NCBI GenBank assembly: GCA_001972305.1
Contig: BDDD01001958.1
Coordinates: forward strand, 62,001 to 126,000
From: Cephalotus follicularis
Lineage: Eukaryota > Streptophyta > Magnoliopsida > Oxalidales > Cephalotaceae
Length of the DNA stretch: 64,000 nucleotides
Direction: 5' to 3'
In this document: positions 3,901 to 64,000 of the stretch, one piece after another
Layout: every line of letters begins with the position of its first letter
How positions within the stretch are numbered: position 1 is the stretch's first letter
Translations under genes and position numbers: made by a program
The notes under the pieces: generated by a model
Databases searched by the model: none
Told to the model about the DNA's origin: nothing
The model's input: only the letters and a program-made list of their open reading frames with translations

Positions 3901-6900
3901 TATCAACAACTTAGATTGGAGCCATATGCAGTGCATACCACCTTCCAGTATGCAGGTACTGAAGGAAAGCGCCACCGATTGCGGGAAGCTATGGTTTTCT
4001 ATGATCAAGCAGAATATTATGATGCTCCAGGTAATTATATACCTCGAATTTTTATGTTTTATTAGATAAAAACTTTGGTTAACGGTGGAATGCAGGATTG
4101 AACTATTCTTTTTTCGTTTCTAGTTTTTTTTTTTAAATTTTTTACTGCAATAGATTGTGATGTCATCATTGGCTGCTGAATTCCTTTATACGAGGCTCAT
4201 TTGTTAACCAAGTATATTTACTGTCTATTAGTCTTTTCATTCATGGGTGTGTGTTGTGTGTGTGAAGGGACTGAGTCCAAACAGTGGCTACTGGTAACTG
4301 TTTCTTGAATTGACGTTTATATTGTTTTAAATTGGCATGAGAGTTGAATATTTCCCATGATAAAAGATTGTCAAGGAACATTTCCCAGCATCTTCTTGTA
4401 ACTAATTCTACATATTTCTCGAGAGTAAAATCTTTAATGGTAAATCATGTTCCACTTTCTGCCTATATTCTCATCCTAATAGAAAGGAACCTTGCATTCA
4501 ATAAAAAAAAATTGACTTTGTCTGCAATATTGATTTTGGTTCCAAACTAGAGTTTAGAACTACTTATGCTAAATGCTTGGCACTTTTACCAATGGATTAA
4601 TGCATCATAACATTTGCTCTTTGCATAAAGCCTTGCTTAACTTCTTAGAAAAATGCAGGAGGTTTCTTGTCATTTAAGCCAAAAATTCCCAAGCGTTTGT
4701 TACTAGATGGGGAGCACAACTTGGAATCACACTTTTCCCTTATTAACTACCAAGTATGCAGGCATTCACCTAATGTCACTAACTTCTGCCTCTTGATTTG
4801 GTATTACCCGTTGATTCTCATAACTTTATAATTTTATGGACTGTTTAGATAAAACAGATAAGGTCGGCACTTGCTATTGCTTCACTGTTGAATCGTACGC
4901 TGGTGAGGAAACTTTACTTTGCATGCCCATCATTCATTATCTCTAGTGGTTGGTGCTATTATGAAAGAGCTTCCACGTTAAATTAATAAAGAGGTTTGTG
5001 TTTTTATAGTTGTAGAATAATGTGCAGATGGCCTAATTTTCTCTGTTCAGTTACACATTACGCGTGCCTTTCTAATGATTATGATCTTGTATATCCAAAA
5101 AGATTTAATTTCAATGTCATCTGTACTGTACAGAATTTGCTATTTTTACCAGGGTCTGGTTATGGCGCATAAGTTGTAGATGGAAACAAATAGCAAAGTT
5201 ACTCCTTCAATAAAGCTTAAAATAAGGAACTTATCACACCACTAAAACTCCTTTTCTATATATCTTGTGACACAATGTATCTGCCTTCCTTACTAAATGA
5301 GTCCTCTTATCCAAAAAATTAAACCATAGTTGTAAGAAGTTTGGGCAAAAGTATTATATGAAAGAAATTAGTTGTTTGGCATGACAATCACAATGGAAAT
5401 TGTGCTAGTAGAAAAAATAACACTTTAAGAATTGTTTGATATCATTCACTTGTTAGGTTTTCTAATGCTCTTTTAGATGATTCTCCAGATATTGCGGTGA
5501 AAGAAGTAATCTTTTTTGAAGGAAAATTTATTGATTTGACCTTCACAATAACAACAGTGGTTAAAGTTCTAGTGGAAATAGTGCTTTTAGAGTCATTCAT
5601 AATTATGCACTTGCAGCTGTTCAAATGCTTTCAATAGTGATTCTATGTATATTAATAATAGAAGAAGAATTATCTGATGATAGATTTATTGCTTTGATCA
5701 TGATTGTAATAATGGATTTTTTTTATTCTTTTATTTTTGTAGAAATGCACTTTGAAATCAATTGATATTAGGAAATTGTGGCCGTTCAAATGCTTTTAGT
5801 AGGTAATTTTATGTGTTTTTACAATGAAAGTATTATTTTTTTAATTAATTTTTTTTGGGCAAATCCCACAATAGCACCATAAAAAAGTAGTGATTTCCCA
5901 ATTTGGCACACAATATTTCTTTTTTTCCAATTTGGCACACAATATTTCTTTTTTTCCAATTTGGCGCACTACAGTGGAAAAAATCTCAATGTGATGCACG
6001 ACGTTAGTTTCCGTTAACAAAATTGGGGAAATCCCCATGTGACCCGCACGTGGTGCGCCAAATTAGAAAATCATTACTTTTTTAGGACGTCATTCTGGGA
6101 TTTTTCCCTAAAAAAATAATATGGTAGCTGAATGACGTGTCATTTCACGTTTAAGTTAGGGTTTCACTAATTTTGTTAAAGGCAGCTAACAGTATGCGCC
6201 ATATTGGGATTTTTTTTCACTGTAATGCGTCAAATTGAAAAAAATAAAATTGTTTTGCATCAAATTGGGAAATCACTACTTTTTGAGGACGTCATCTTGG
6301 GATTTCCCCCTTTTTTTTGGAAGAATAAACTAACAAGTAATGCCTACACTACATTTGGAAGAAATATTAAGTGTATCGTTCATGCAGGAAATAGTGGAAA
6401 AAAAAAGTGCTACATATTATCACTTTTAGAATTGTTTGAAGCTATGCACTTGTAGCTGTTGAAATTTTTTGTTAAAAGGTGATCGTATGTGGTTTTGTAT
6501 CGTAACAAGAAGCTTTTGAAAGAAGCACCCATTGTTTTGGTTGTGTTGGCAACAATGGAAAAAACGAAGCGTTTAATATTATGCACTTTTAGCCCTTCAA
6601 ATTTTTTTGTTAAGTGATTCTATCTGAGTTCATAATCTAAGAAGTATTTCTTAAAGAAGCACATACTCTTTTAGTCGTTGTGGATACGGTGGAAAATGCA
6701 CTGTTCCAATATCTCTTTTAAATTTGTCTTATATTTTTCATTTGTAACCATTAAAATGTTTTTAAAAGTTAATCTTATGCGGTTTCATGGCTTAAGAAGT
6801 AGTATTTGAACTAAAATTTTGTTGTTTCGGTCGAGAAGGCAACAATGGAAAATGTTGAATTGTCAACCATTCCACACTTGGTAGCACACCTACATTGATC

Positions 6901-31370: not shown

Positions 31371-32186
31371 ATGGTGAAGCTATGAGATCGACTGAAGTTA
31401 ACGAAAGAAGAAGGTACGAAAGTCTATGTTGATGATAGTATGAGGGACAACATCAACCCAAAAGGATTCTTTTGCTTGATAGGGAGTCTATGGAACACCA
31501 AGATTTAGTAAGGAAACTTTTAAGAAAACGATGAAAACGTTATGGCGAGCAAAATATGGATTGAGAATCAGAGATGTTGGGAACAATCTTTTCTTATTTA
31601 TTTTTAACGATGAGGATGATAGGTTGAAAGTCATGAAGCTAAGCCCTTGGCTATTTGATAAACATATTCTCCTCCTGGAAAAGATAGAGAATGAGGTTCA
31701 CCCTTCGAACCTATCCTTACATAAGGCAACTTTATGGATTAGGGTTTTTGGGGTTCCATACTTATATCTGTCCGAGAGAGTTGGGAGAATTATAGGAGAG
31801 GAGATTGGTGACCTAGAAGAGGCAACTGTGATCTCGAGGAAAAAAGATAACAATCAATATCTGAAATTACGGATAGGCTTGGATGTGCGTAAACCCCTTA
31901 GGTGGGGTATGAAGTTTTCGGTTGGTTTATCGGAGAAGGCATGGCTATCCTTTCAATACAAAAAGTTACCAAATTTCTGTCACAATTGTGGGAGGATGGG
32001 TCATACTGTTAAAGAGTGTGATTCTAAAAATCCGAAAGATGATGTAGGGCTTCCAAGGGACCTCTAATATGGGGCATGGCTACAAGCAGAGAGCTTTCGT
32101 TTTGGAAATCCTCAATTCTACCAAGGGATGTGGTCAGATCCCCCTAAATTCTAGAATGATGAGAGCCAGGATAATGTAGAGGGAGA
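31371..32186 (+). pseudogene. LINE ORF1-type relic (DUF4283 + CCHC zinc knuckle), 5' part
   Basis: The frame begins MVKL, has a TGA at codon 5, and continues DRLKLTKEEGTKVYVDDSM and GFFCLIGSLWNTK. A frameshift near 31505 leads into FSKETFKKTMKTLWRAKYG and GLRIRDVGNNLFLFIF, DUF4283-type sequence, followed by WIRVFGVPYLYLSERVGRII and the knuckle CHNCGRMGHTVKEC (about 31978-32020). A TAA follows at 32065-32067, after which the same frame still reads YGAWLQAESFRFGNPQFYQG. This is ORF1 of a plant L1-type LINE or a derived DUF4283 gene. It is dead, and it is cut at 32186 by a copia element; its downstream part resumes at 48402. Confidence 0.8.
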
Positions 32187-37520: not shown

Positions 37521-37785
37521 GCGTCACCGTTCTGAACAAAAGCGTCGACGCTAAAACATGGCGTTGACGTCCAAACACAAGGCGTCGACGAAAGCGCTGA
37601 ACAAAGCGTCGAAGAAAATACAACAATTAACATCATAAGCGTCGACGCTCAAAATAAAGCGTCAACGTTTAAGACATAAGCGTCGATGGGAAAAATGAAA
37701 ACAATCGACGCTTAGACTTATGCATGACGATTTAAACAGCTTTTCTATAAACAGGCGTTGACGCTTACTCTATAGGCGTCGATGC
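37521..37785. repeat. Phased GCGTCGACGC palindrome array in the reverse solo LTR
   Basis: GCGTCGACG-type sites, perfect or with small changes, start at 37521, 37542, 37561, 37582, 37606, 37639, 37659, 37680, 37702, 37755 and 37776. Steps are 21, 19, 21, 24, 33, 20, 21, 22, 53 and 21 bp. Most variants are CG to TG or CA. More copies lie at about 38518-38660 and 42701-42730. Confidence 0.88.
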
Positions 37786-38648: not shown

Positions 38649-40394
38649 TGTAATACCCTGCTTGCTTGTACGTATTTTTCTTACGGGTTTTATCTGTTTC
38701 GTTTAAGTATTTGTCTGTTTTATGTTGGGTTTATGTTTTTGGGCTGACTGATACCAGCCTTAATTTTGGGTATGTTGGTATGGATATTTTGTTTGGTATA
38801 TTTAGTCATATTATTATTATTATTACTATAAACTAATTTACAAATACATAATTATTATATTATATATATATGTATGCCAAAGTCATTGTGTCAGCCGTCT
38901 CTCTCTCTGTTGTGGTTGCTGCCGAACCTGCCATTGGAGAATCATTGTGTTTTTGGTGTTCTTGCTTCATCAATCAGGTTAGTTTCTTCATGGTTTCAAT
39001 GTAGGAATCGTTTTTGCAAGGTTTGGTATAGTTGACAGGATTTGAATTCTTGATATCTTCCTCTCATTTTTCTTTTTGATCAGCCACTGTGTCCTCTGAA
39101 TTGGTGTTTCTGAAACTATTTTTGACATCCAACAGGTTGGTTTCCTATGTTGTTATGTCTTGGTGATTGGTCTTGGATTGTTGCCATCAAAATTTTTGGT
39201 ACATTGGTTGCTAGAGTGGTTTCGGCATTCTTGATGTTCTGTCAAATAAATCCTTGGTTGTAACGATATGTAGACACCTAAGACATGTTATGTAATCTGG
39301 TTTTGATGCATGTGATCATCATAAATGGACAGAATTGGAAGCATGCAATTGTATGTTATGGTTTAAAGTCATTGTCACCTTAAATAATTTTCTGTCAACA
39401 TGTCTCTGTCGAATTATGTGTTGTAACATTGTTTTAGATGCCATACAAAGTTGTTTTTAATATTGGTAATCTTCTAGTGTCGAAAAATCCGAGTCTTGGC
39501 TGCTCAATTGCACAAAATCGCGCTGAATTGCTGTTCTGTCACCCAGAACAGTCGACTGCCCATATGAACAGTCGACTGTCTTGTGTTGAGTAGTCGGCTG
39601 GACCCCTGATTTAGTCGACTGCTTGCATGTCCAGGATGAGTAGTCGACTGGCCCTGTTGTGTAGTTGACTGCCACCCCTTGTTAGTCGACTGGATTCTTG
39701 AAACAGTCGGCTGGTTTGTCTTGTAAACTTCTGTTTTCATCCGTTTGTTCTTCCGATGATCCGGGTCTATTCTAAACATCATTATGATTCTGTTTTATGT
39801 TCAAAATGAATTTTAGACCCTTATTTGAACATTGTTATTTTGTTTAGATTATTGTGCTACGTGAGGCAAATTAAGTTTACCGGATTTTCGTAAGTTAGTC
39901 TGTGATCGCATAAGGTACGGATTTTCTGTTCTTTGGCTATCTGATTTTATTGGAACTGTTCCGTTTCACCTTTATGATTAAAGTACGAATTTTCGTTCCT
40001 TGATAAACTCGTACTAATTCAGTTCTGTTTTGAGAATGAATACAGATTCTTTGTTTTGGTTATTATGCGGTTTTATGAATATGTCCTTTTCAGATTATGA
40101 ACTCCATTTTGTTTGGATTTTGAAATGAAGTCAGTTAATATTTTATTGAATATATTTTCTGGCTTAATGGATTCAGCTATGTTATGTTTACGAAATGCTA
40201 TGCAAATGTCTCTTTACTGTGAAAATAAAAGAGTTGCATGAATAAGTTTCAGTTATGATCAGTTTCAGTATGTTTTTGATTATGCTTTAAACCATCACGT
40301 TTTTAATAAAGATGAACTTTTCTAGTATGTTAAGTTATGTTAAGTTTTCGTTATATGCACCTGTGGCGACTCCCACAGCTCGGGGGGTGTTACA
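38649..40394 (+). repeat. 5' LTR of the chromovirus-type element
   Basis: It shares TGTAATACCCTGCT at the start and GGGCTGACTGATACCAGCCT further in with the reverse complement of 55142-56586, so both belong to one family. It holds a CAGTCGACTG-type array at 39549-39713. Confidence 0.9.
39549..39713. repeat. Phased CAGTCGACTG palindrome array in a gypsy LTR
   Basis: Eight sites of the CAGTCGACTG type (allowing TAG/CGG/TTG variants) start at 39549, 39569, 39591, 39612, 39641, 39662, 39683 and 39704. Steps are 20, 22, 21, 29, 21, 21 and 21 bp. Spacer sequences differ from one another, so this is not a simple tandem repeat. Confidence 0.93.
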
Positions 40395-40569: not shown

Positions 40570-42480
40570 ATGGTACGCACAAGAAACACTCCTCAGAGAA
40601 CTGCACCAGCTGGGGCTCGAAATGAAGTCGGAAACGAGCCTTCTGTGGAAGAGTTGGTTCGTCAGGCAGTTGCTCAGGAAGTGAATCGTGTAATGCAACA
40701 ACAGAATCGGGAACAAGTTGTTGAGGAGAATGCTCTGGCTGAGGTTCAGAGGGATATGGAAACTGGGGATAGGCATGGCACACCTACTCATGTCTGGCTT
40801 GAGCGGTTTCAGAAACAGAGGCCGCAGTCTTTCAGTTCGGCTGTGACTCCTGTAGAAGCCGAACACTGGGTAGCACATATGGAGAAGATCTTTAGTGTAT
40901 TGAGGTGTGATGATCAGCAGAAGGTAAGGTTGGCGGCTTACAAACTCGAAGGGGATGCTCAGAAATGGTGGAATACTCTGAATTCGGCTAAGGGTGAAGG
41001 TTATGCAGATGCTCTGTTGTGGTCTGAGTTCCAGGATGTCTTCTATCAGTAGTATTTCCCCACTGCTGATAAGGAGGCCTATGCTAGAGAGTTCGTCAAC
41101 ACCAGGCAGAAAGATGGAGAAACGGTTTTGGAGTTCTTGGCCCGTTTCACTAGATTGGCTGGGTTAGCTGGATCCGCGGAAGGGTCAGCATCAGAGCAAG
41201 CTGAAAAGTTCAAGTGGGAGATGCATTACCAGTTTAGGGGAAAACTGATAAACTCCAAGTTTGCGGATGTAGCTGAAGTTGCTAATGCTGCGAAAAACAT
41301 TGAGTTAGAGAGATTGGACTTCCAGGCAACACATCAGGAAGGGGATAAAAAGCGGTATAGGAGTGAACAAGATTCTGGAAAGCAGGGCAAGGGTCAAGGT
41401 AGTTCATGGAACAGAGGCAGAGGAGGCAAACAACATAAGAGAAATCACAAGCAGAATAAAGATGGTAATCAACAGTGTCAGCAAGGGAATGATCAGAAGA
41501 ATGCACATGGAGCTGATGGGGGTAACCCCGATGTTCAGATTGCTAGATGTGATGCTTGTGGTAGGTATCATCCAGTCAGTACCTGTTATAAAGTCAGTGG
41601 GGCCTGTTTTGTGTGTGGACAGATGGGACACTTCGCGAAGGATTGTCAGGATCCTCGTGCTAAGGAAAGGAAGGGTAATGGTGCGAATGCTGGGCAGCGC
41701 AACGTGGGAGGCCGAGTCTTTGCAATTACGACTCATCAGGCAGCTAATGCTCCAGGTACGGTTTCGGGTTTTATTTCTATTGATAATCGTAGAGCTTATG
41801 TGTTATATGATACTGGATCGACGCACTCGGTTGTAGCGAGATCTTTTGTTCGGCATCTTGGGATGCCTTCGCAGTTGTTTGATCCTGTTTTGGTTCTTTC
41901 TACCCCTATGGGAACATCTGTTGTGATATCTGAGTGTTTTTATGCTTGTCCTATTGTTTTCGATGACCGGGTTCGTGATGCGGATCTTTTTCCTATGGAT
42001 ATATATGATTTCGATGTTATTCTAGGAATGGATTGGTTGGAACGCCATCGGGCTACGATTGATTGTCATGCTTGGAGGATTCTGTTCGAAGAAGTGGATC
42101 GACCTGATTTTGTTTATCAGGGTTCACGGCCTATGAAAGATGTCAAGATCATATCTGTTATGAAAGCTCAGAAGTTAGTAGCTAAGGGCACCGCAGGGTT
42201 TCTAGCTGTTGTGAAGGATGTCTCAAGGGTCGAGCCTCGCCTTGAAGATTATCCTGTAGTTAGAGAATTTTCTAATGTGTTTTCGGAGGAATTACCGGGT
42301 TTGCCACCGCAACGGGAAGTGGAGTTTACCATTGAACTCATTCCTGGGACGACACCTATATCTAAAGCACCGTATAGGATGGCACCGCTTGAGTAGCAAG
42401 AGCTGAAGGAGCAGTTGCAAGAGTTGTTAGATCGGGGTTTTATCCGGCCGAGTGTTTCGCCGTGGGGAGCTCCAGTTTTG
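40570..42480 (+). pseudogene. gag-protease region of the chromovirus-type element
   Basis: Gag starts MVRTRNTPQRTAPAGARNE at 40570. The gag core has AEHWVAHMEKIFSVLRCDDQ and KLEGDAQKWWNTL. A knuckle CFVCGQMGHFAKDC lies at about 41608-41650. The protease active site is YDTGSTHSVVARSFVRHLG (about 41808-41865), followed by DVILGMDWLERH. RT begins near PGTTPISKAPYRMAP. It is a fossil. Confidence 0.88.
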
Positions 42481-48963: not shown

Positions 48964-51475
48964 TGTTGGGAACGCATGGCCCACGCGCGACGGAAGACTT
49001 ATCAAACCAGACTTTAGGGGTTAGGGCCGATTACCTTTAATTTTTCACAAATAGATTAATCCCCAAGCAATGAGATGCCCTAATCTAAGTTCGAATTGTC
49101 CCAATAAATGCCAAGGAACTCTAATCAACATTCAAACAAACCGAAACCAAAACCAAGCATAAGGAAATCGGGATTCGAATAGGGTTACCGTAAACCCTAA
49201 ACAATGGGCACACACATAGACTCACAAGGCGAACACACAATACCCTAGCCTAACGCCCAAGAAACCCAATTCCAAACATTCCTAACCCTAAGGGATGAAA
49301 ATGATACACCAACAAGCACCCATGGAGGTTTGGCTAGGGTTTACCAAAACCCTAACCAACACCCACTGCCATGGAACCACAGATGTAAAAGAAGAAGAGG
49401 TTCTTACCGGAGGTGAAGACTCCTTCCTTCAAGATAAGCTCCCTATCCACTTTAATCCAAGAACTCCAAGCTCTTCCAAGAAAATCCTCAAACCACGAAT
49501 GAGGAAGATGAAGGCAAAGTGTTTAACCTAGTCTAAATCACTCTAGGTGTAGATAAGGTGTAGTGTACAATTTATCTCCACCTATAATGACCTTTGAGTG
49601 GTGAAAGGAGGCTTGAAAATTACTGCAAATCGCACCAGGCGACGTAGGCATCCACGTGTAGGCGATAGGCATCGACGCATATACAAGCAGGAAGAAGAGA
49701 AAGCAAGATAGGGAAGACAAATAAAGAGGAAGTCTTAAGTGTGTTCAACAAGCTTCTCTCAAGCCTTTTATAGTCATACTTTCTCTCTCCTAATTTAGCC
49801 GCACATTAGCCTGTCAAGGCGTCAACGCCATACGTCTCATCTTATCAAGGCGTCAATGCCATGCGTCTCATCTTATCAAGGCGTCAACGCAAATGATAGG
49901 ATGAGACAAGCGCCTAGTCTCATTTGTCTTCCCGTCAACCCCTAAAACCCATAGCGTCAACACGTAAACCTACTGATTTTTAAATCATCAACGCCATGCT
50001 CTCCATAGCGTTAACGTTCAGCGGCTCAATCTAGTTATGGCATCGACATGTATCCCTCATGGCGTCGACATATAAAGCTACTGGTTTTGTCAGCGTCAAC
50101 GCAAGCTATTAACGTTAACGCCCAGCAACTCAACTAGACATGGCGTCGACGCATACTCTTCATGGCGTCGACGCCTAAGACAAAAAGACAATCTCTTCTC
50201 ATTTTCAAAAGCCTTCGCATGGAATACTTCATCGTGGCATTGTATGGACCTAAATCCATCAAATGAAATACTCACTAGCAAAGCAACATCTTCCCTGATA
50301 TTTTCCTTTCACTAAATGATATTTGTACCACCACATATCAACCTGTTCAAAGTTAGGCAGGACCCGAAAACCTGTTCTCCGGTATGATGATAAATTTCCA
50401 GAACATCCTGATTTCTGGTATGATCGCTCTAACAGTACACCGACCATCAGAGCAGCCCCGGTGTGAGCGCCAGTCACCCCCTGGATCCGTGTATTACCAC
50501 GTCTATCAATCATGGTCCGAATAGCCTGTCGCTCTATCCAGTCATCGACATATGTGTCATGTTTGCCTCATCATACTTGGTTTTGATCACAGCCTAGGGT
50601 TTGGATGAATGTCACCCCTAGTTCCGCTGTGATAACTATGAATCTATGATCGCACTGAGACTATCGGTAGACCTCCCACGAGAACCTCTCATTCACAGTC
50701 CACCTAAGCCTGATCAGGAATTTTAAGTCTGCAACGTACATAGATAAATAGAGTCGGTCACCCTTAGTCCGGGTGTGACGATCTCCTATTGCGTACTCAC
50801 CCATTCATATCAATGCAGCTCCCACAAGACCCAAAGACAACCCTTTTGCCAACACCTGGCTAGTACTGGGGAAGGTGAAAATCAAAGTCAAGCAGTCACC
50901 ACACAGTGCATGCCAGTCGCTCAGGTCGAAGGAGACAACTCAGGCTATAGACCTACTAGGGACCATAGACTATACACTACCGAGACCATAGGAATCCTAT
51001 TGACACTGGGTATTGACTATCCAAGTAGGTTTCCTATTGGTGGGTCTGTTCAGTGTCACGCACTCTAGCATACACCTCACATTTAGCTTTAGGAGTAAAC
51101 CCAAATGGCTATGAGATAACCATCCTCCACTGCTAACCCGAGAGTGAGCTTAACGTTGCAAGTCTTCACGGTTCATCAATGGCCCAAAGAAAGTGAACCT
51201 ATGACTTGGAACATTTCTCACGTGGAGTAAGGATCTCATTCTCATAGCCTTCTCAGCACGAGATCAAACCCTTTGGTGTGACAGGGTGCTATATGACATA
51301 CAGTTAATTACGTATAATTATTCTGTTCCTTTTGGTTGGTTGGGATGAGCCATATAGCCTGACAATATTTAAATATGCACATAGAATATAAAAGGAATTC
51401 AGAATTTCATAAATTAAGAGTGTTTATATACAAAAGAGCCATATAGTGGCATATAGGGACACCCCTAACCTAACA
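48964..51475 (-). repeat. 3' LTR of the left reverse copia element, with a palindrome array
   Basis: It is homologous to the LTR at 53653-57401: both share, for example, CCTGGATCCGTGTATTACCA, ACCACGTCTATCAATCA and GGGTTTGGATGAATGTCACC. It differs by carrying a GCGTCAACGC-type array at about 49640-50175 that the other LTR lacks. Confidence 0.85.
49640..50175. repeat. GCGTCAACGC/GCGTCGACGC array in a copia LTR
   Basis: Sites include GCGTCAACGC (49819, 49881), GCGTCAATGC (49850) and GCGTCGACGC (about 50142 and 50163), with others near 49964, 49985, 50008, 50040, 50061, 50093 and 50113. Neighbouring steps are often 20-22 bp, with three starts 31 bp apart where CATACGTCTCATCTTATCAA is duplicated. 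Confidence 0.8.
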
Positions 51476-55141: not shown

Positions 55142-56586
55142 TGTAACACCCCCCAATAGGTGGGTACAATACTCAATATTCAATCATTTCGAAAACATTG
55201 ATTTATCAATTTAAAAACACATAAATATGCTTTCACAAAACATATTTGGAAATCGTTCACAACGATATCAAAACATACATTTCATAGTCAAATTATCAAC
55301 TAATATATACTTCGCTATAATGAGGTGATCATAACATATCGTATCATTTCGTATCATATGAATAAAGTCAGAATCATTCATAAATGTCAAAACCAACTTC
55401 ATTTTCGAAACATGTCAAAACCATAAAACATTTCCAAGTTCATAAATGAAGAAGCATAGCATAAAGCAAAACTGTTTTCAGTTCGAAAATCAGATAGCCA
55501 AGGAAACGATAGAAATCCGTACCTTATGCGTTCACAATGCACTTACGGATAGATTATTCACTCAACTCCCTTTGAAGTACAACAATCTAAAAGACACCCA
55601 AAATCATTCATATAAGGGTCCAAGAAACATCAGAGACATTAAACAGACTCTTAGCAGTGTTTAGAAAAGACCCCGATTGATTCGAGAAACAAACGAATCA
55701 AAACAGTTGAAAACAACACTTTTCTGGGCAAAACAGTCGACTGTTACAGAGCACCAGCCGATTGGGGAAGCTTAGCAGTCTACTAATCACAAGGGCCAGT
55801 CAACTACTCAAACCAGAATGCAGGCAGTCGACTGTCACATAGATCCAGTCGACTACACAACCCAAGACAGTCGACTGTGTTCATATGGCAGTCGACTACT
55901 CATCCAATCCAGCCGACTGTCCACAAGAACAGCCGACTGTTCTGGACGACAGACCAGCAGCAACATGACAATTTGATACAGAAACCGATTCAAACGATTA
56001 CGACACTAAACCAGAGACACATGAACATAAACATATGATAGTACATAGCATTTAGATGACACAAAGACACCGAATTGACATAGAATAAGGTGATCAGTGA
56101 CTAAACTTCTAAGGAAAGCAAGAACAACATTTAGCAAGTGCATACATACAGAAAGAGTAATTTGAGGGATGAATAAGGAAGAAGAGGAGACAAGAATCGG
56201 TTGAATAAGGAAGAAGGAGATTGAAGACGTGTGGAATTTATGAGGGAGGGAGAGAGTGTCGGGAGAAGAGAAGAGAAGAAAGGAAAGAAATGAGGAAAAG
56301 AAGGAAATAGGAATTAAAGAATTAAAATAAAAGAATTAAAGGAAATAAGGAATTTTTAAAATAAAAGAAAGCAAATTATTTTAATAAAATTAGTTGGAAA
56401 ATAAAATAAAAGCCCAAACCAAACATTGCAATGCATATCCAAAAATTCAGGCTGGTATCAGTCAGCCCAAATCACATAGGCCCAAAACAAAAGGGCAACA
56501 AGACTTTAAAATTAAACAGAATTAAAAAGCCTGAAACAACATATAAAAAGTCCATAAAAACACATACGAACCAGCAGGGTATTACA
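55142..56586 (-). mobile_element. Gypsy solo LTR, 1445 bp, same family as the LTR at 38649
   Basis: On the reverse strand it starts TGTAATACCCTGCTGG and ends GGGGGGTGTTACA. It shares GGGCTGACTGATACCAGCCT and a CAGTCGACTG array with 38649-40394. Flanks are ATGAC (55137-55141) and ATGAT (56587-56591), a TSD with one difference; removing it restores copia LTR sequence like that near 50660. No internal region is present. Confidence 0.87.
55734..55939. repeat. Phased CAGTCGACTG palindrome array in the gypsy solo LTR
   Basis: Ten sites start at 55734, 55755, 55776, 55797, 55825, 55846, 55868, 55889, 55910 and 55930. Steps are 21, 21, 21, 28, 21, 22, 21, 21 and 20 bp. Variants are mostly CAGCCGACTG, CAGTCAACTA and CAGTCGACTA. 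Confidence 0.94.
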
Positions 56587-59049: not shown

Positions 59050-60307
59050 TCAGGTTGGGGGTCCTTCCCCAATTATGTATCTAGAGGGTTCAATCTCTAA
59101 TTCCTCTTCATCCCATGGGCTTTCACCAGGTGATAAATCTCTCAGTTCCACCTTGCTCCCACTGCTCCCTACAAGCAGGTAATCCCTCTCCAGGAATTTA
59201 GCAGTTTGCGAAACAAAAACCTTTTGTTCATTGGAATGGTAAAAGTAGTATCCCATGCTCTCCTTAGGATACCGCACAAATAGACAACGATCCGCTCGTG
59301 CCTCAAGCTTAGAAGTCTCTAGCCTCTTAACATAAGCTGGATAGCCCTAAAACCTCAGATGGTTTAGGCTGGGTTTCCTCCCTTTAAATATCTCATAATG
59401 AGTGGAGGGGAAGGATTTAGAAGGAATCCGGTTTAGGATGTGCGCTGCCGCTTGCAGCGCATAACCCTAGAATGATATAGGCAGATCTGCAAAAGATATC
59501 ATGGACCGTACCGTATTCATCACGGTCCTATTCCTTCGCTTGGACACACCATTATGCTGTGGTGTTTCGGGAGGTGTCCATTGAGAGCGAATTCCGTTAT
59601 CCCTAAGATAACCCAGGAATTCAGCAGACATGTATTCACCACCTCGATCCGACTGAAGGATCTTAATGGGTTTACCCATTTGCTTTTCTACTTTTAGTCT
59701 GAATTCTTTAAACCTCTCAAAGGCCTTAGACTTGTGTTTTATCAGAAACACGTACCCAAACAGTGAGAAGTCATCAGTGAAGGTAATGAAGTAGGGATAG
59801 CCTTCAATAGCATTGATCGACATAGGTCCGCAAACGTCAGTGTGGACAAGCCCCAGTATGTCCACTGCCCTTTCCCCTACCTCAGAGAAGGGAGATTTGG
59901 TCATCTTGCCAATAACACATGGCTCACACATAGGAAAGGATTCCACGTCCTAGATGTCGAGAAGACCATCCTTAACCAAACATGTTAATCTAGCATCACT
60001 AGGATGACCTAATTTACAATGCCATATGTAAGAAGGATTTACATTGCTTATCTCTTTGTCTTTTAGTGCTAGTTCCAGTTTGAATTGTTAAAGCCATTTG
60101 TTGATTTGTATTTAAAACATAAATCCCATTGTCTATGTGTCCCTCACATATAAGAACTTTGTTATGCATAAGACTACAAGTAAATGTAGTAAAATTGAGC
60201 TCCATGCCCATCTTATACAAATAGGAAACATATATAATGTTCCTTACAAGGTTCGTGACATAATAACAAGGATCAAGTTTTAATACATGCCCATTCAACA
60301 AAGACAA
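59050..60307 (-). pseudogene. Integrase region of the right reverse copia element
   Basis: Reverse-strand blocks: FPMCEPCVIGKMTKSPF (zinc-binding end), LVHTDVCGPMSINAIEGYPY, SDRGGEYMSAEFLGYLRDN and SQWTPPETPQHNGVSKRRN in about 59467-59946. The GAG-pre-integrase region lies upstream to about 60307 and the integrase C-terminal region at about 59050-59400. Confidence 0.85.
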
Positions 60308-61399
60308 TTAAAAAACGCCTACATAAGTGGTGTGAATCCTTGACCCATCACCTATGCGTAAGTCCAGTGCTTCCCTAGCATCAACCTTTCTAGCTCCTCT
60401 TAGTCCCTCCAAAGAGTTACAAATATTAGTTCCATAACCTAAATCCAAAACCCAAGTTGAACTAACATTTTCATCTAGAAAAAGCTCAATCATAAAAGTA
60501 CCTGACCCTAAGGCACCTTCTGATTTGGACATTTGGAACTCTTGGCACAGAGATCTCCAATGACCTTGCTTCCCATAATTGAAGCAATAGTCTTCATCCT
60601 GAAGATTTTGGATCATATCTAGGATGGCTCCCCCAACCACTGGCCCCGCCGACCTAGTAGGTTGTCTTCCTTTCTTATTCTTCTTCCCTTTAGGAATCAT
60701 GGGCGCCTTGCCGTTGGACTTAGATCCTCTCGATCTGCTCTTATTAGGAGTTTTCCGGGAAGAAGTAGAAGGTAGAAGCATCACATTAGACTTGGATTTT
60801 CCATGATCCATGTCTACTTTGGCCGTACGAAGCATTTCCATAAGCCTAGGTAGATTCGTGTTCACCTTGTTCATGTGGAAATTTGTGATGAATTGGGAGT
60901 ATGACTGTGAAAGAGAGCAAAGCACCAGGTCAATGTAAAAATCATTGTCCATGGTGAGATCTAACTGATGTAACTGCTCAATGAGATCTATCATCTTCAA
61001 TCCATGTGCATGGATTGAATCTCCCTCGGTCATCTTAGCAGAAAAGAGCTGACGGGTCAACTTAAACCTCTCAATTCTAGACCAGCATCCATACAACTCC
61101 TGAAGACGGAGAAGTATGGCTCCAAGGGTATCAAGTTTCTCGTGCTGTCTTTGCAATTCTGGGACCATACCCGAAATCGCTAGGCAATGGGCTTGCTCAT
61201 CCTTGTCTATCCATTTGGCCATCTTGGCCTTTTGCACTTCTGTCGAAGTGGCTCCCAATTTAGGGGGGCTCTCAGTCATGACATGAACAAGCTTCATGCT
61301 CATGAGTGCTAATCGCAGATTGCGCTGCCAATCCATAAAGTTTGGACCCGTAAGCTTATTAGTTTCCAATATGTGTGAAAGTGCTATGCCAACTGACAT
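60308..61399 (-). pseudogene. gag of the right reverse copia element
   Basis: A long reverse-strand frame starts at 61399 (MSVGIALSHILETNKLTGPN). It shows the copia gag core (NLRLALMSMKLVHVM, YSQFITNFHMNKVNTNLPRL), a basic region (RKTPNKSRSRGSKSNGKAP) and a knuckle-like CFNYGKQGHWRSLC (about 60540-60585). The protease start follows (STWVLDLGYGTNICNSLEG). It is one of the better preserved fossil frames here. Confidence 0.85.
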
Positions 61400-62701
61400 T
61401 TTAAGCAGAGTCTGTATATATCTAGCAACCTATAAAAGAGGAAATAAAAAGAGAGTAATTTTAGCAGATAATTCCATTTAATGTTATTACCATAATCCTT
61501 GGTCTTTTGTAATTACGGCTACTCCCACTATTCTAATCGTATCCCACACCCTCATGTGGAATACGGGAAGCCTCTCCCTTCCTAGTGGGGATCGGAATCT
61601 ATCCAGAATATAATAGTCCTAGTTGTAGCTGCGCAAACTATAATATCTAAATAGGTAGGTACGAGTACCAATTTACATTCTTGGGCTCTCCCCTCGAAAT
61701 GTAAGATCCGATACAAAATATTCGGCCTCCCAGCCCCTATGGTCTCTGCTGTAGCAAGATGGTAACCATAAGATCCAGGTATAAGTCAAACCCACAATCC
61801 TCAAAGAAATGAACCCGTTTTGACACCCACATGCTGTAGCCTGTCAGAATGTCAAAACATGATAATTTCCTTCCTGTGTACCTCACACTGAAATTGAATC
61901 GAAATGGTCATACGGAAGACCTCAGCTATAGCTGGTGCCATCCCCAATATGTCCACACCATTCAACGATGATTATGGAAGGCCAATGACAGGGCAACCAT
62001 ATGACCCACCGCTTATGGACAAATTATTTATATGATTTGGAGGAATTTGGTCTCATCAATTTTATTAAATTACCAATGCAATTATTAGATAATTTAATTA
62101 TCTTCCAATCCCTTTGGAACGGTTGAACATGCTTGGACGTGTTTGGATTATTTGTAAAAAGAAAAAAATCCATCTCATGCATCCTAAAAGTGGCCTGACT
62201 TGGGACATAAAACTATAAGTGATCACGTGAGCCAACGTGACCACTTGGTCTCCTAGGTGTACTAATTTAATTAACTCTATTACATTTTGCTAACATGCAT
62301 ACATGGTCTTCAATTGGTCTTGTATTTTTCTTTGATCCCCTCTTCAAGCTTGATTGGTCTCCTTTCTTCCATTTACATCCATTGTACAATTAAAAGAAAA
62401 GAAATACAATTGAGGGAGAAGAGAATTCTATTCCCTATAAAATAAAGGACAAGAAAATAAACGGCGCGCGTAGGCAGCCTTATTACAGACCGAATGAATT
62501 CCATTAAATGTAATAAAGAATTTAAATCAAACACAAAAGAAACCATAAAACTAGGTCTAGTCCCAAGCCTATCAGCATGCATAAGAAATTAAAAAATATA
62601 GCTATATATATAATTGAATTAACACGTAAAAAAATTAATGTTCAATGGCTCATCGATTTCACAAAAAGCTAAACAAATTGCAACTCCCACTAAATATAGT
62701 G
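61400..62701 (-). other. Leader of the right reverse copia element
   Basis: Non-coding DNA upstream (reverse strand) of gag, comparable in position to the 2.2-kb leader of the forward copia element. I see no gene and no clear repeat. It ends where the next element starts at 62702. Confidence 0.55.
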
Positions 62702-62863
62702 TTGGCATTTGCCACCCCGTTAATTGTTTTAACATGTGTTATTTCGATGATTAACAAACATGTAAAAATTGTACGCATAATTCTTTGAACTATCTATTCA
62801 TATACTCACTTGATTTAATGCCCAAAGTTGTGCAAAGGATATTTCTGCAGAAACAGGCAAAAA

Positions 62864-63375
62864 CAGCCGACTGCCCAGGTTGGACAGCCGACTGTATGGG
62901 TTGAGTAGTCGACTGTCTGGATTAAACAGCCGACTGGTTCTTGAAGGAATCCCAGCAACTGGAAGTACACTCCATACCAGCAGACTACATCAGGGGACGA
63001 GTAGATTGCCAAGTCAAAACAGTCGACTGCCAAGTATGGCCAGCCGACTGCCAAGAAGTGTGCAAAAGAGGCAGTAGGTTATTGGAATTTCATCCCACCT
63101 CAACCAGCCGACTGACGCAGGACACCAACCAACTGTCACGGCTCACCAGCCAACTGTCAACATCTCCAGCCGACTGTAAAAGAAATGTGCAAAATTGGCA
63201 GTAGCTTTTTGGAAGTCCAATCCACCTCGACCAGTTGACTGGAACAGAGCATCAGCCGACTGCCCAGGAGAAACAGACGACTGTCCAGAGGAAGCAGCCG
63301 ACTGCCTTCACCAACGGCTATATTTGAAACACGCGCCATCAACTCCAGCTGACTGCCTAGAAAACCAGCCGAAAG
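62864..63375. repeat. Phased CAGCCGACTG/CAGTCGACTG array in a copia LTR
   Basis: Runs of sites start at 62864, 62885, 62906, 62927 (steps 21); 63020, 63041 (21); 63105, 63126, 63147, 63167 (21, 21, 20); 63232, 63253, 63274, 63295 (21); and 63346, 63366 (20). The groups are separated by sequence without clear sites, including the related TGTGCAAAAGAGGCAGTAGG and TGTGCAAAATTGGCAGTAGC, suggesting a larger repeat of about 130 bp. Confidence 0.93.
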
Positions 63376-63540
63376 GATTGTGCCAGACATTCAAAAATAG
63401 ATCCGTTGGAGCACATGTTTATAAGCCAAAGTGGAGCTTTTTCCAAAGCACTTCCAGCAATCAAGTTGAAAAATCATTCAAGGCAACTCAAGCAATATTC
63501 TAAACACTCTCAACACCAAAAGAGATCATATTGAAGCGAG

Positions 63541-64000
63541 ATTTACCTTAAGTCTAGAGACTTCAAGAATTGGCTTAGTGTCAAAAATGGTCCTCACATT
63601 CCCATGAAAATAAATGATAAAAATGAATGCGTTGCTAAAACAGAAGATGAGTGGGATGATGATGAGTTCAAAAAATTGACCATAGATAACAAGGCCCTAA
63701 ATATTTTACTTGTGTCTTTAGATAAGGTCGAATATAATCTTGTTAGGAGATGCACCTCCGCACATAAAGTGTGGAAATTGATCATCCTCACCCATGAGGG
63801 TACCAAGCAAGTTAAAAATGCCAAACTTGCTTTGTTGAATAGAGACTGTGAGTTATTTAAAATGCAACCAAACGAATCTATCAAAAATTTATATAATCGT
63901 TAGATTGATATCACTAATGCTCTTCTTGGCCTAGCCAAGGTTTTTGGCAAAGATTACCTCGTTAGGAAATTGCTCGGGTGCCTTAACGATGAGTGGGAAC
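63541..64000 (+). pseudogene. UBN2-type gag of the right-edge copia element (partial)
   Basis: The frame shows YLKSRDFKNWLSVKNGPHIP, then DEWDDDEFKKLTIDNKALNI, RCTSAHKVWKLIILTHEGTK and LLNRDCELFKMQPNESIKNL, the order of DUF4219/UBN2 copia gag proteins. It runs off the window end. It is a fossil. Confidence 0.82.

Follow-up and report, generated by a model that had tools for sequence, protein, structure and literature searches.

A window of 64,000 nucleotides of Cephalotus follicularis DNA (the whole stretch that was analysed) contains an array of the 10-bp box CAGYCGACTG within the LTR of a Ty1/copia element, and the same box was also found in LTRs of Ty3/gypsy elements. Judged by its sequence, the copia array is of the RM ("repeated motif") box type of Sirevirus-like copia elements, with a new arm sequence, as far as the accessible part of the RM-box description (Bousios et al. 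2010, PMC2829016) extends. It probably consists of phased binding sites of a regulatory protein, placed close to the promoter in the Sirevirus-like copia elements. The sharing of the box across copia and gypsy appears to be the unusual feature.

The copia element and its array

The features of the copia element in the window were as follows.
62700..63537, + strand: Sirevirus-like Ty1/copia LTR, 5' part, 838 of ~1,272 bp, 3' end cut (by similarity to locus L027 and other copies)
62864..63375, + strand: CAGYCGACTG array, 17 sites with at most two mismatches, 9 of them exact, mostly at 21-bp steps (motif scan)
62864-62936, 62978-63050, 63105-63176, 63232-63304 and 63346-63375: clusters of this array
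63420..63425, + strand: TATA-like box TATAAG, 44 bp past the last site (sequence)
63571..63900, + strand: copia gag fragment, up to the first stop (PF14223 Retrotran_gag_2, E 1e-11)

The initial annotation had given at least 16 sites in a 21-bp phase. The count holds with mismatches admitted (17 sites with at most two, 14 with at most one) and fails for exact sites, only 9 of which were found (62864-63304); the last site, 63366-63375, has two mismatches. The step was borne out: the distances between the 17 sites were 21, 21, 21, 51, 42, 21, 64, 21, 21, 20, 65, 21, 21, 21, 51 and 20 bp, i.e. exactly 21 bp in 9 of 16 steps and 20 bp in 2. A higher-order duplication of 127 bp (2.1 copies) was also present. 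Over the whole window, 23 strand-matches to CAGYCGACTG were counted against 0.10 expected, and no exact site was found between 55939 and 62864. The box form CAGTCGACTG is a perfect palindrome and CAGCCGACTG is one pair off dyad. Each 21-bp unit is composed of the 10-bp site, which is kept, and an 11-bp linker, which varies within arrays; the A at site position 7 was constant in the units picked at no more than one mismatch (25/25 in copia and 33/33 in gypsy).

The LTR starts at 62700, two bases ahead of the 62702 noted earlier. Forty of 5,703 first-look candidates for the query 62702-63540 were scored, and at least 39 other places in the genome proved 88-90% identical to it. L027 holds this sequence twice, as a pair of LTRs that agree at 95.3% of 1,246 aligned bases; a polypurine tract precedes the 3' LTR, and ATTGA borders the element on both outer sides. 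As in Sireviruses, several copies of the polypurine word AGGGGGAG precede this 3' LTR (7773 and 7805, exact; 7844 and 8068, one mismatch). The Sirevirus primer-binding site TATCAGAGC was not found in L027 or L023, and L027 has 25 N at 1980-2004, after the 5' LTR. Since the 3' LTR of L027 (8078-9349) gives a full length of ~1,272 bp, the window LTR is taken to be cut at 63537, where it runs into copia gag. The similarity of the window copy to L027 stops at 64209, and a search of the following 20 kb for a second LTR was negative (E 1e-5); the window copy is a remnant. By Pfam domains, L027 is classed as copia on Retrotran_gag_2, gag_pre-integrs and RVT_2, and the window copy on gag. The positions 46648-45766 of the window form an empty site, matching the flanks of L027 (84% on each side) without the element.

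With the array interiors masked, the flanks of the copia LTR matched only loci with the same LTR (L027, L009 and L023) among the stretches compared (at least 50 bp, E 1e-5). The assignment of the array to a Ty1/copia LTR was upheld by these flank matches, by the LTR pair of L027 and by the copia gag. The possibility that 62702-63540 is a nested piece of a gypsy LTR was ruled out on the same observations, the masked flanks matching, among the stretches compared, only loci of the same copia LTR.

Two other elements were noted in the window. A separate copia gag (PF14223) with an integrase core domain (PF00665) lies at 59470-61399 on the - strand, and an ORF with DUF4283 and a zinc knuckle (PF14111, PF14392) lies at 31531-32064 on the + strand; the latter domain set is presumably that of plant LINE-type elements.

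Genome-wide abundance and phase of the box

Words were counted across the 1.577-Gb assembly with reversed words as the control. CAGTCGACTG was found 197,377 times (reversed word, 939). For CAGCCGACTG, one strand held 88,572 copies and the other 88,820, where the reversed control gave 708 and 622; the exact boxes of both forms number ~375,000 in the genome. The genome search for 21-bp phased CAGYCGACTG that had been proposed with the initial annotation returned 55,531 forward box pairs at this step against 165 of the reversed pattern; at a 25-bp step, 82 pairs were counted in the forward and 87 in the reverse direction.

Spacing was recorded in a sample of 259,971 bases (the window, three neighbouring stretches and 17 others) for sites with at most one mismatch. 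The only inter-site distances between 10 and 40 bp were 19 (1), 20 (18), 21 (52), 22 (10), 28 (4), 29 (3) and 40 bp (2). Among the palindromic decamers of this sample CAGTCGACTG (46) ranked highest after two AT repeats, followed by ATGCATGCAT (14) and GCGTCGACGC (12). Steps of 19-22 bp accounted for 39/58 in copia LTR arrays (n=5), 60/61 in accessory-ORF arrays (n=22) and 58/75 in gypsy-type arrays (n=13). Irregular gaps were present in both superfamilies, at 28-29 and 49-50 bp in gypsy and at 49-52 bp in copia.

Promoters of the copia LTR and of the accessory ORF

The window array begins ~163 bp inside the LTR, and the distance from the last site to a TATA-like box was 44 bp in the window, in L023 and in both LTRs of L027, and 43 bp in L001 (five LTRs of four elements). 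The 5' LTR of L027 carries 18 sites with at most two mismatches, and 4 more sites precede its accessory ORF (ORF3). This second array, at 6233-6305, is followed downstream by TTTTATAAAACC. Aligned with each other, the linkers of the two L027 arrays scored 18, below the 23 reached by the best of 100 shuffles, so that the two promoters share the boxes only.

The sole Pfam match of ORF3 is PF20167 (E 2.3e-20), a family of putative plant transposon proteins to which no function is assigned. At least 109 ORF3 matches were obtained from 11,803 candidates, and 20 promoters were chosen from these by hand. At least two boxes with at most one mismatch were present in 20/20 of these promoters and at least four in 16/20, with steps of 21, 20 and 22 bp in 13 of the latter and of 21, 19 and 22 bp in the other three. 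TATAA was located 15-20 bp past the last box in 10/20 promoters, and none was there in the other ten.

Comparison with Sirevirus RM boxes

In the accessible part of their description, RM boxes are palindromic, number 8 to 32, occupy the upper LTR half ahead of the TATA box, are also placed upstream of the ENV-like ORF, carry a CGG-CCG core signature in 12/13 published cases, and are called Sirevirus-specific in a comparison with classic Ty1/copia elements (PMC2829016). As far as that part goes, the present boxes resemble them in dyad symmetry and in having at least 8 copies per element (18 + 4 in L027), in clustering in the upper LTR half with a TATA-like box 43-44 bp on in 5/5 LTRs, and in standing before an accessory ORF (at least two boxes in 20/20 promoters), where RM boxes stand before the ENV-like ORF; the Vitis RM box CGGTCGACCG shares the core GTCGAC with the CAGYCGACTG boxes. 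Within the same limits they differ in having CAG-CTG instead of CGG-CCG arms, in the 21-bp step, which the accessible part of PMC2829016 does not describe for RM boxes, and in also occurring in gypsy LTRs, while that source compares with classic Ty1/copia. The initial annotation had held that the array would be notable whether it was gained independently or moved between element families; palindromic Sirevirus arrays have been published (PMC2829016, as far as accessible), so that the copia array taken alone belongs to a known type, and it is the gypsy arrays that retain the unusual side.

The Vitis-type box CGGTCGACCG was found 50 times in the genome against 191 for its reversed control, in a search that covered this CGG-CCG box alone. 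With regard to the CpG-island character of RM arrays, the GC content in four copia LTR arrays was 0.50-0.53, above that of the LTR flanks, and the CpG observed/expected ratio was 0.54-0.61, not consistently above the flanks. A literature search, largely judged without full text, yielded no description of the box in gypsy LTRs, and CAGTCGACTG as a query yielded no retrotransposon paper, as judged by title.

Arrays in gypsy LTRs

The features of the gypsy arrays in the window were as follows.
55142..56586, - strand: gypsy solo LTR (TGTAACACC...GTATTACA; TG...CA ends), inside another element, flanks ATGAC/ATGAT (orientation from L025)
55734..55939, no strand assigned: array of 10 CAGYCGACTG sites with at most two mismatches, within the solo LTR 55142-56586 (motif scan); referred to as win55
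39549..39713, no strand assigned: array of 8 sites with at most two mismatches, where the sequence resembles the gypsy LTR 55142-56586 (motif scan, similarity); referred to as win39

A gag/protease ORF at 41128-42393 (+ strand) comes after win39. In L012 and L025, two relatives of the solo LTR, an array occupies the corresponding position, and the sequence to either side of it resembles the LTR (a run of N was noted at ~5560-6490 of L012). The order in L025 is integrase, chromodomain (PF00385 Chromo, E 1.7e-6), the polypurine tract AGGGGGGTGGA and the LTR start TGTAATACCC, and this gypsy host of the box is classed as a Ty3/gypsy chromovirus of the chromodomain type; the Chromo match of L016 was under the Pfam cut-off.

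An array census was performed on 17 arbitrarily chosen stretches (L010-L026), an array being defined as at least three sites with at most one mismatch, one of them exact. Ten of the 12 arrays were assigned to gypsy-like LTRs, partly by eye, because their flanks are similar to such LTRs or because they lie beside a chromodomain-type pol; one was in copia (L023), and one (L011, 6029-6242) was placed in neither. The sense strand of the win55 group reads CAGTCGRCTG and that of L016 and L011, next to pol, mainly CAGYCGACTG, so that the orientation of the gypsy arrays is not fixed. An earlier candidate rule, that the array orientation equals the element sense in both superfamilies, was dropped once L025 gave the LTR orientation. 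When a TATA-like word at a fixed distance was searched for in both orientations of the gypsy arrays, the distance varied or no word was seen. Two of five gypsy-gypsy pairs (win55-L018 and win55-L010) had linkers more alike than all 100 shuffles and three did not; the gypsy linkers are therefore only partly erased.

A second palindrome class has GCG arms: GCGTCGACGC pairs at the 21-bp step numbered 1,915 genome-wide against 3 for the control. Clusters of GCGTCGACGC-like sites (at most two mismatches, GTCGAC core) were observed in the window at 37542-37785 and 49819-50174, with steps including 19-22, 31 and 50 bp. L014 and L019 have the same LTR start, TGTAATAACC, as the gypsy element of L016, and they carry GTCGACG-type sites where L016 and L011 carry CAGTCGACTG-type ones, ~150-185 bp into the LTR. 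L014 and L016 are 87.6% identical over 659 bp across the end of pol. The sites at this similar LTR place are given below.
L014 2821-2850 and 9585-9726: GCG-type sites
L016 7966-8045: CAG-type sites
On this small alignment, the arms may switch between CAG and GCG while the core and the place stay.

Sharing of the box between copia and gypsy

Beyond the arrays, the copia and gypsy LTRs of the stretches compared showed no similarity at E 1e-5. The linkers were compared as a set of 47 copia (three lineages) and 84 gypsy linkers (11 arrays) with a column-shuffled null of 400 shuffles, in which the kinship of rows inflates the counts. The sharing may be due to an old transfer, to convergence or to a second shared sub-site. 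An ancient transfer of arrays between LTRs of the two superfamilies, through template switching or conversion and with later divergence of the linkers, is possible, though we rate it as somewhat doubtful. Several observations would fit such a move: copia-gypsy linker pairs matching at 8 or more of 11 positions numbered 40 against a null mean of 13.3 and maximum of 29 (0/400), a count inflated by related rows; irregular gaps occur in both superfamilies; and a ACAGGGGTC-like linker follows an irregular gap in copia L023 and L001 as well as in gypsy L016a, L018 and win39. However, other linkers follow the gap in gypsy win55, L012a, L025, L011a, L011b and L016c, the excess at 9 or more of 11 positions was not significant (4 against a null mean of 1.7, 48/400), and masked local alignments of copia and gypsy arrays reached 1/100 or less in only 3/66 pairs. 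The linker-register test for transfer was negative (0.300 at the gap-aligned register 0 against 0.320 at register 2, with no unique best), and there is the lack of homology beyond the arrays. Gene-conversion tracts, for which a test had been proposed with the initial annotation, were not seen between copia and gypsy in the linker, masked-alignment and register comparisons. A transfer concerns the origin of the arrays and is therefore compatible with their being regulatory.

Conservation between lineages and decay among similar copies

Identity was counted with gapped cells excluded and with sites called in the first-named row (in L027 for the L009 comparison); both this single-row calling and the site-on-site alignment of phased repeats favour the motif in the following lineage comparisons. 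Between L027 and L023, identity was 147/169 (87%) in the motif, 193/315 (61%) in linkers and 570/728 (78%) in the rest of the LTR; between L023 and L001 the respective values were 115/125 (92%), 140/213 (66%) and 408/703 (58%); between L027 and L001, 106/126, 119/214 (56%) and 371/679 (55%); and between L023 and the window, 137/159, 201/324 and 234/323. In the two comparisons with L001, linker identity did not fall below that of the remaining LTR (66% v 58%; 56% v 55%), and L009, a partial row, showed no difference between the classes against L027 (62/70, 93/106 and 139/157, or 89, 88 and 89%). The motif was thus retained between lineages in direct counts, which suggests that sites outlast linkers there.

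Between L027 and the window, identity was 83% in the motif, 89% in linkers and 93% in the flank. For 12 similar copies (the window, both L027 LTRs and L028-L036, the best of the listed matches), the mean pairwise difference was 0.122 in the motif, 0.067 in linkers and 0.060 in the flank. At CG and CHG positions it was 0.151 and 0.166, respectively, in the motif and 0.181 and 0.109 outside; at A/T it was 0.040 in the motif and 0.050 outside, and at CHH outside 0.073. The faster decay of the motif in similar copies is mainly due to its richness in CG/CHG positions, and the excess of differences at these positions is as expected of methylated cytosines. We infer that the boxes may have been under selection in active lineages and then subject to methylation decay in dead copies.

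Proposed function and alternatives

The regulatory reading is based on the phase, the TATA distance, the boxes of the accessory promoters, the constraint between lineages and the RM precedent, as far as the accessible part of PMC2829016 describes it. The motif, its phase, its positions and the families that carry it were seen directly, and from here on we infer the binding of a protein, activation and the identity of the factor. CAGYCGACTG would be recognised by a DNA-binding protein, most probably a transcription factor of the host, and the 21-bp step, equal to two helical turns, would align neighbouring proteins along the same side of the helix by the TATA box. Since the same boxes precede the accessory ORF, a single factor could switch on both the genomic RNA and the accessory gene, and chromodomain-type gypsy elements probably answer to the same factor, because their LTRs carry the same boxes. 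Against this reading weigh the bias of the lineage comparisons towards the motif, the linker identities in the L001 and L009 comparisons, the varying TATA distance and array orientation in gypsy and the 10/20 accessory promoters without TATAA. The same anatomy would be expected if the boxes formed a silencer recognised by a repressor of the host. As to a candidate factor, CAGCCGACTG contains GCCGAC, the core of the DRE/CRT sites of CBF/DREB factors, and the commoner form CAGTCGACTG lacks the standard DRE/CRT core; we know of no DRE/CRT array of this size.

Alternatively, the array could be a platform for the ORF3 protein of the element itself, acting as a VANC-like anti-silencing or activating factor, with the gypsy elements parasitising it. 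The boxes do occur both in the LTR and in the promoter of ORF3, and, in the accessible part of the source, VANC proteins encoded by VANDAL transposons bind short motifs that are densely repeated in tandem outside the coding parts of the elements, with targets that differ between related VANDAL elements (PMC5735166). The present boxes are likewise short, closely spaced tandem motifs in element DNA that does not code for protein; unlike the VANDAL case, for which that part of the source demonstrates an element-encoded binder, they are common to unrelated elements and are known from sequence. However, ORF3 matches PF20167 only, its search against solved structures gave nothing convincing (best E 0.027), and Pfam recognised no DNA-binding domain in it, and we consider this alternative unlikely.

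That the palindromes work at the RNA level, forming hairpins from which small RNAs and silencing arise, seems still less probable. A small-RNA role has reportedly been assigned to LTR palindromes of maize Sireviruses, and the L023 array folds better than its shuffles (z -5.0, 0/100), but for the window array the advantage over shuffles is slight (z -1.58, 8/100), many sites are CAGCCGACTG, with a broken dyad and yet with the A at position 7 kept, and hairpins would not need a 21-bp step. A plain minisatellite, built by slippage and with a functionless motif, would suit the tandem layout and the 127-bp duplication in 2.1 copies, but it is very improbable and was rejected as a sufficient explanation, because slippage alone would keep site and linker equally, whereas the 10-bp site persists and the 11-bp linkers vary both within arrays and between lineages, and because the distance to the TATA-like boxes is nearly fixed in two different promoters of one element.

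The reading of the arrays as phased binding sites of a regulatory protein can be extended, as a speculation to which we give little credence, to a single regulon of copia and gypsy elements under one trans-acting factor, possibly a Sirevirus-like accessory protein; the activator of one family would then mobilise others, and gypsy relatives would join or leave by switching CAG and GCG arms. If one phased box works in both superfamilies, unrelated retrotransposons would share a regulator and their bursts of activity would be linked. With ~375,000 exact boxes, the putative factor would be confronted with a very large number of sites, and which protein it is could be tested directly.
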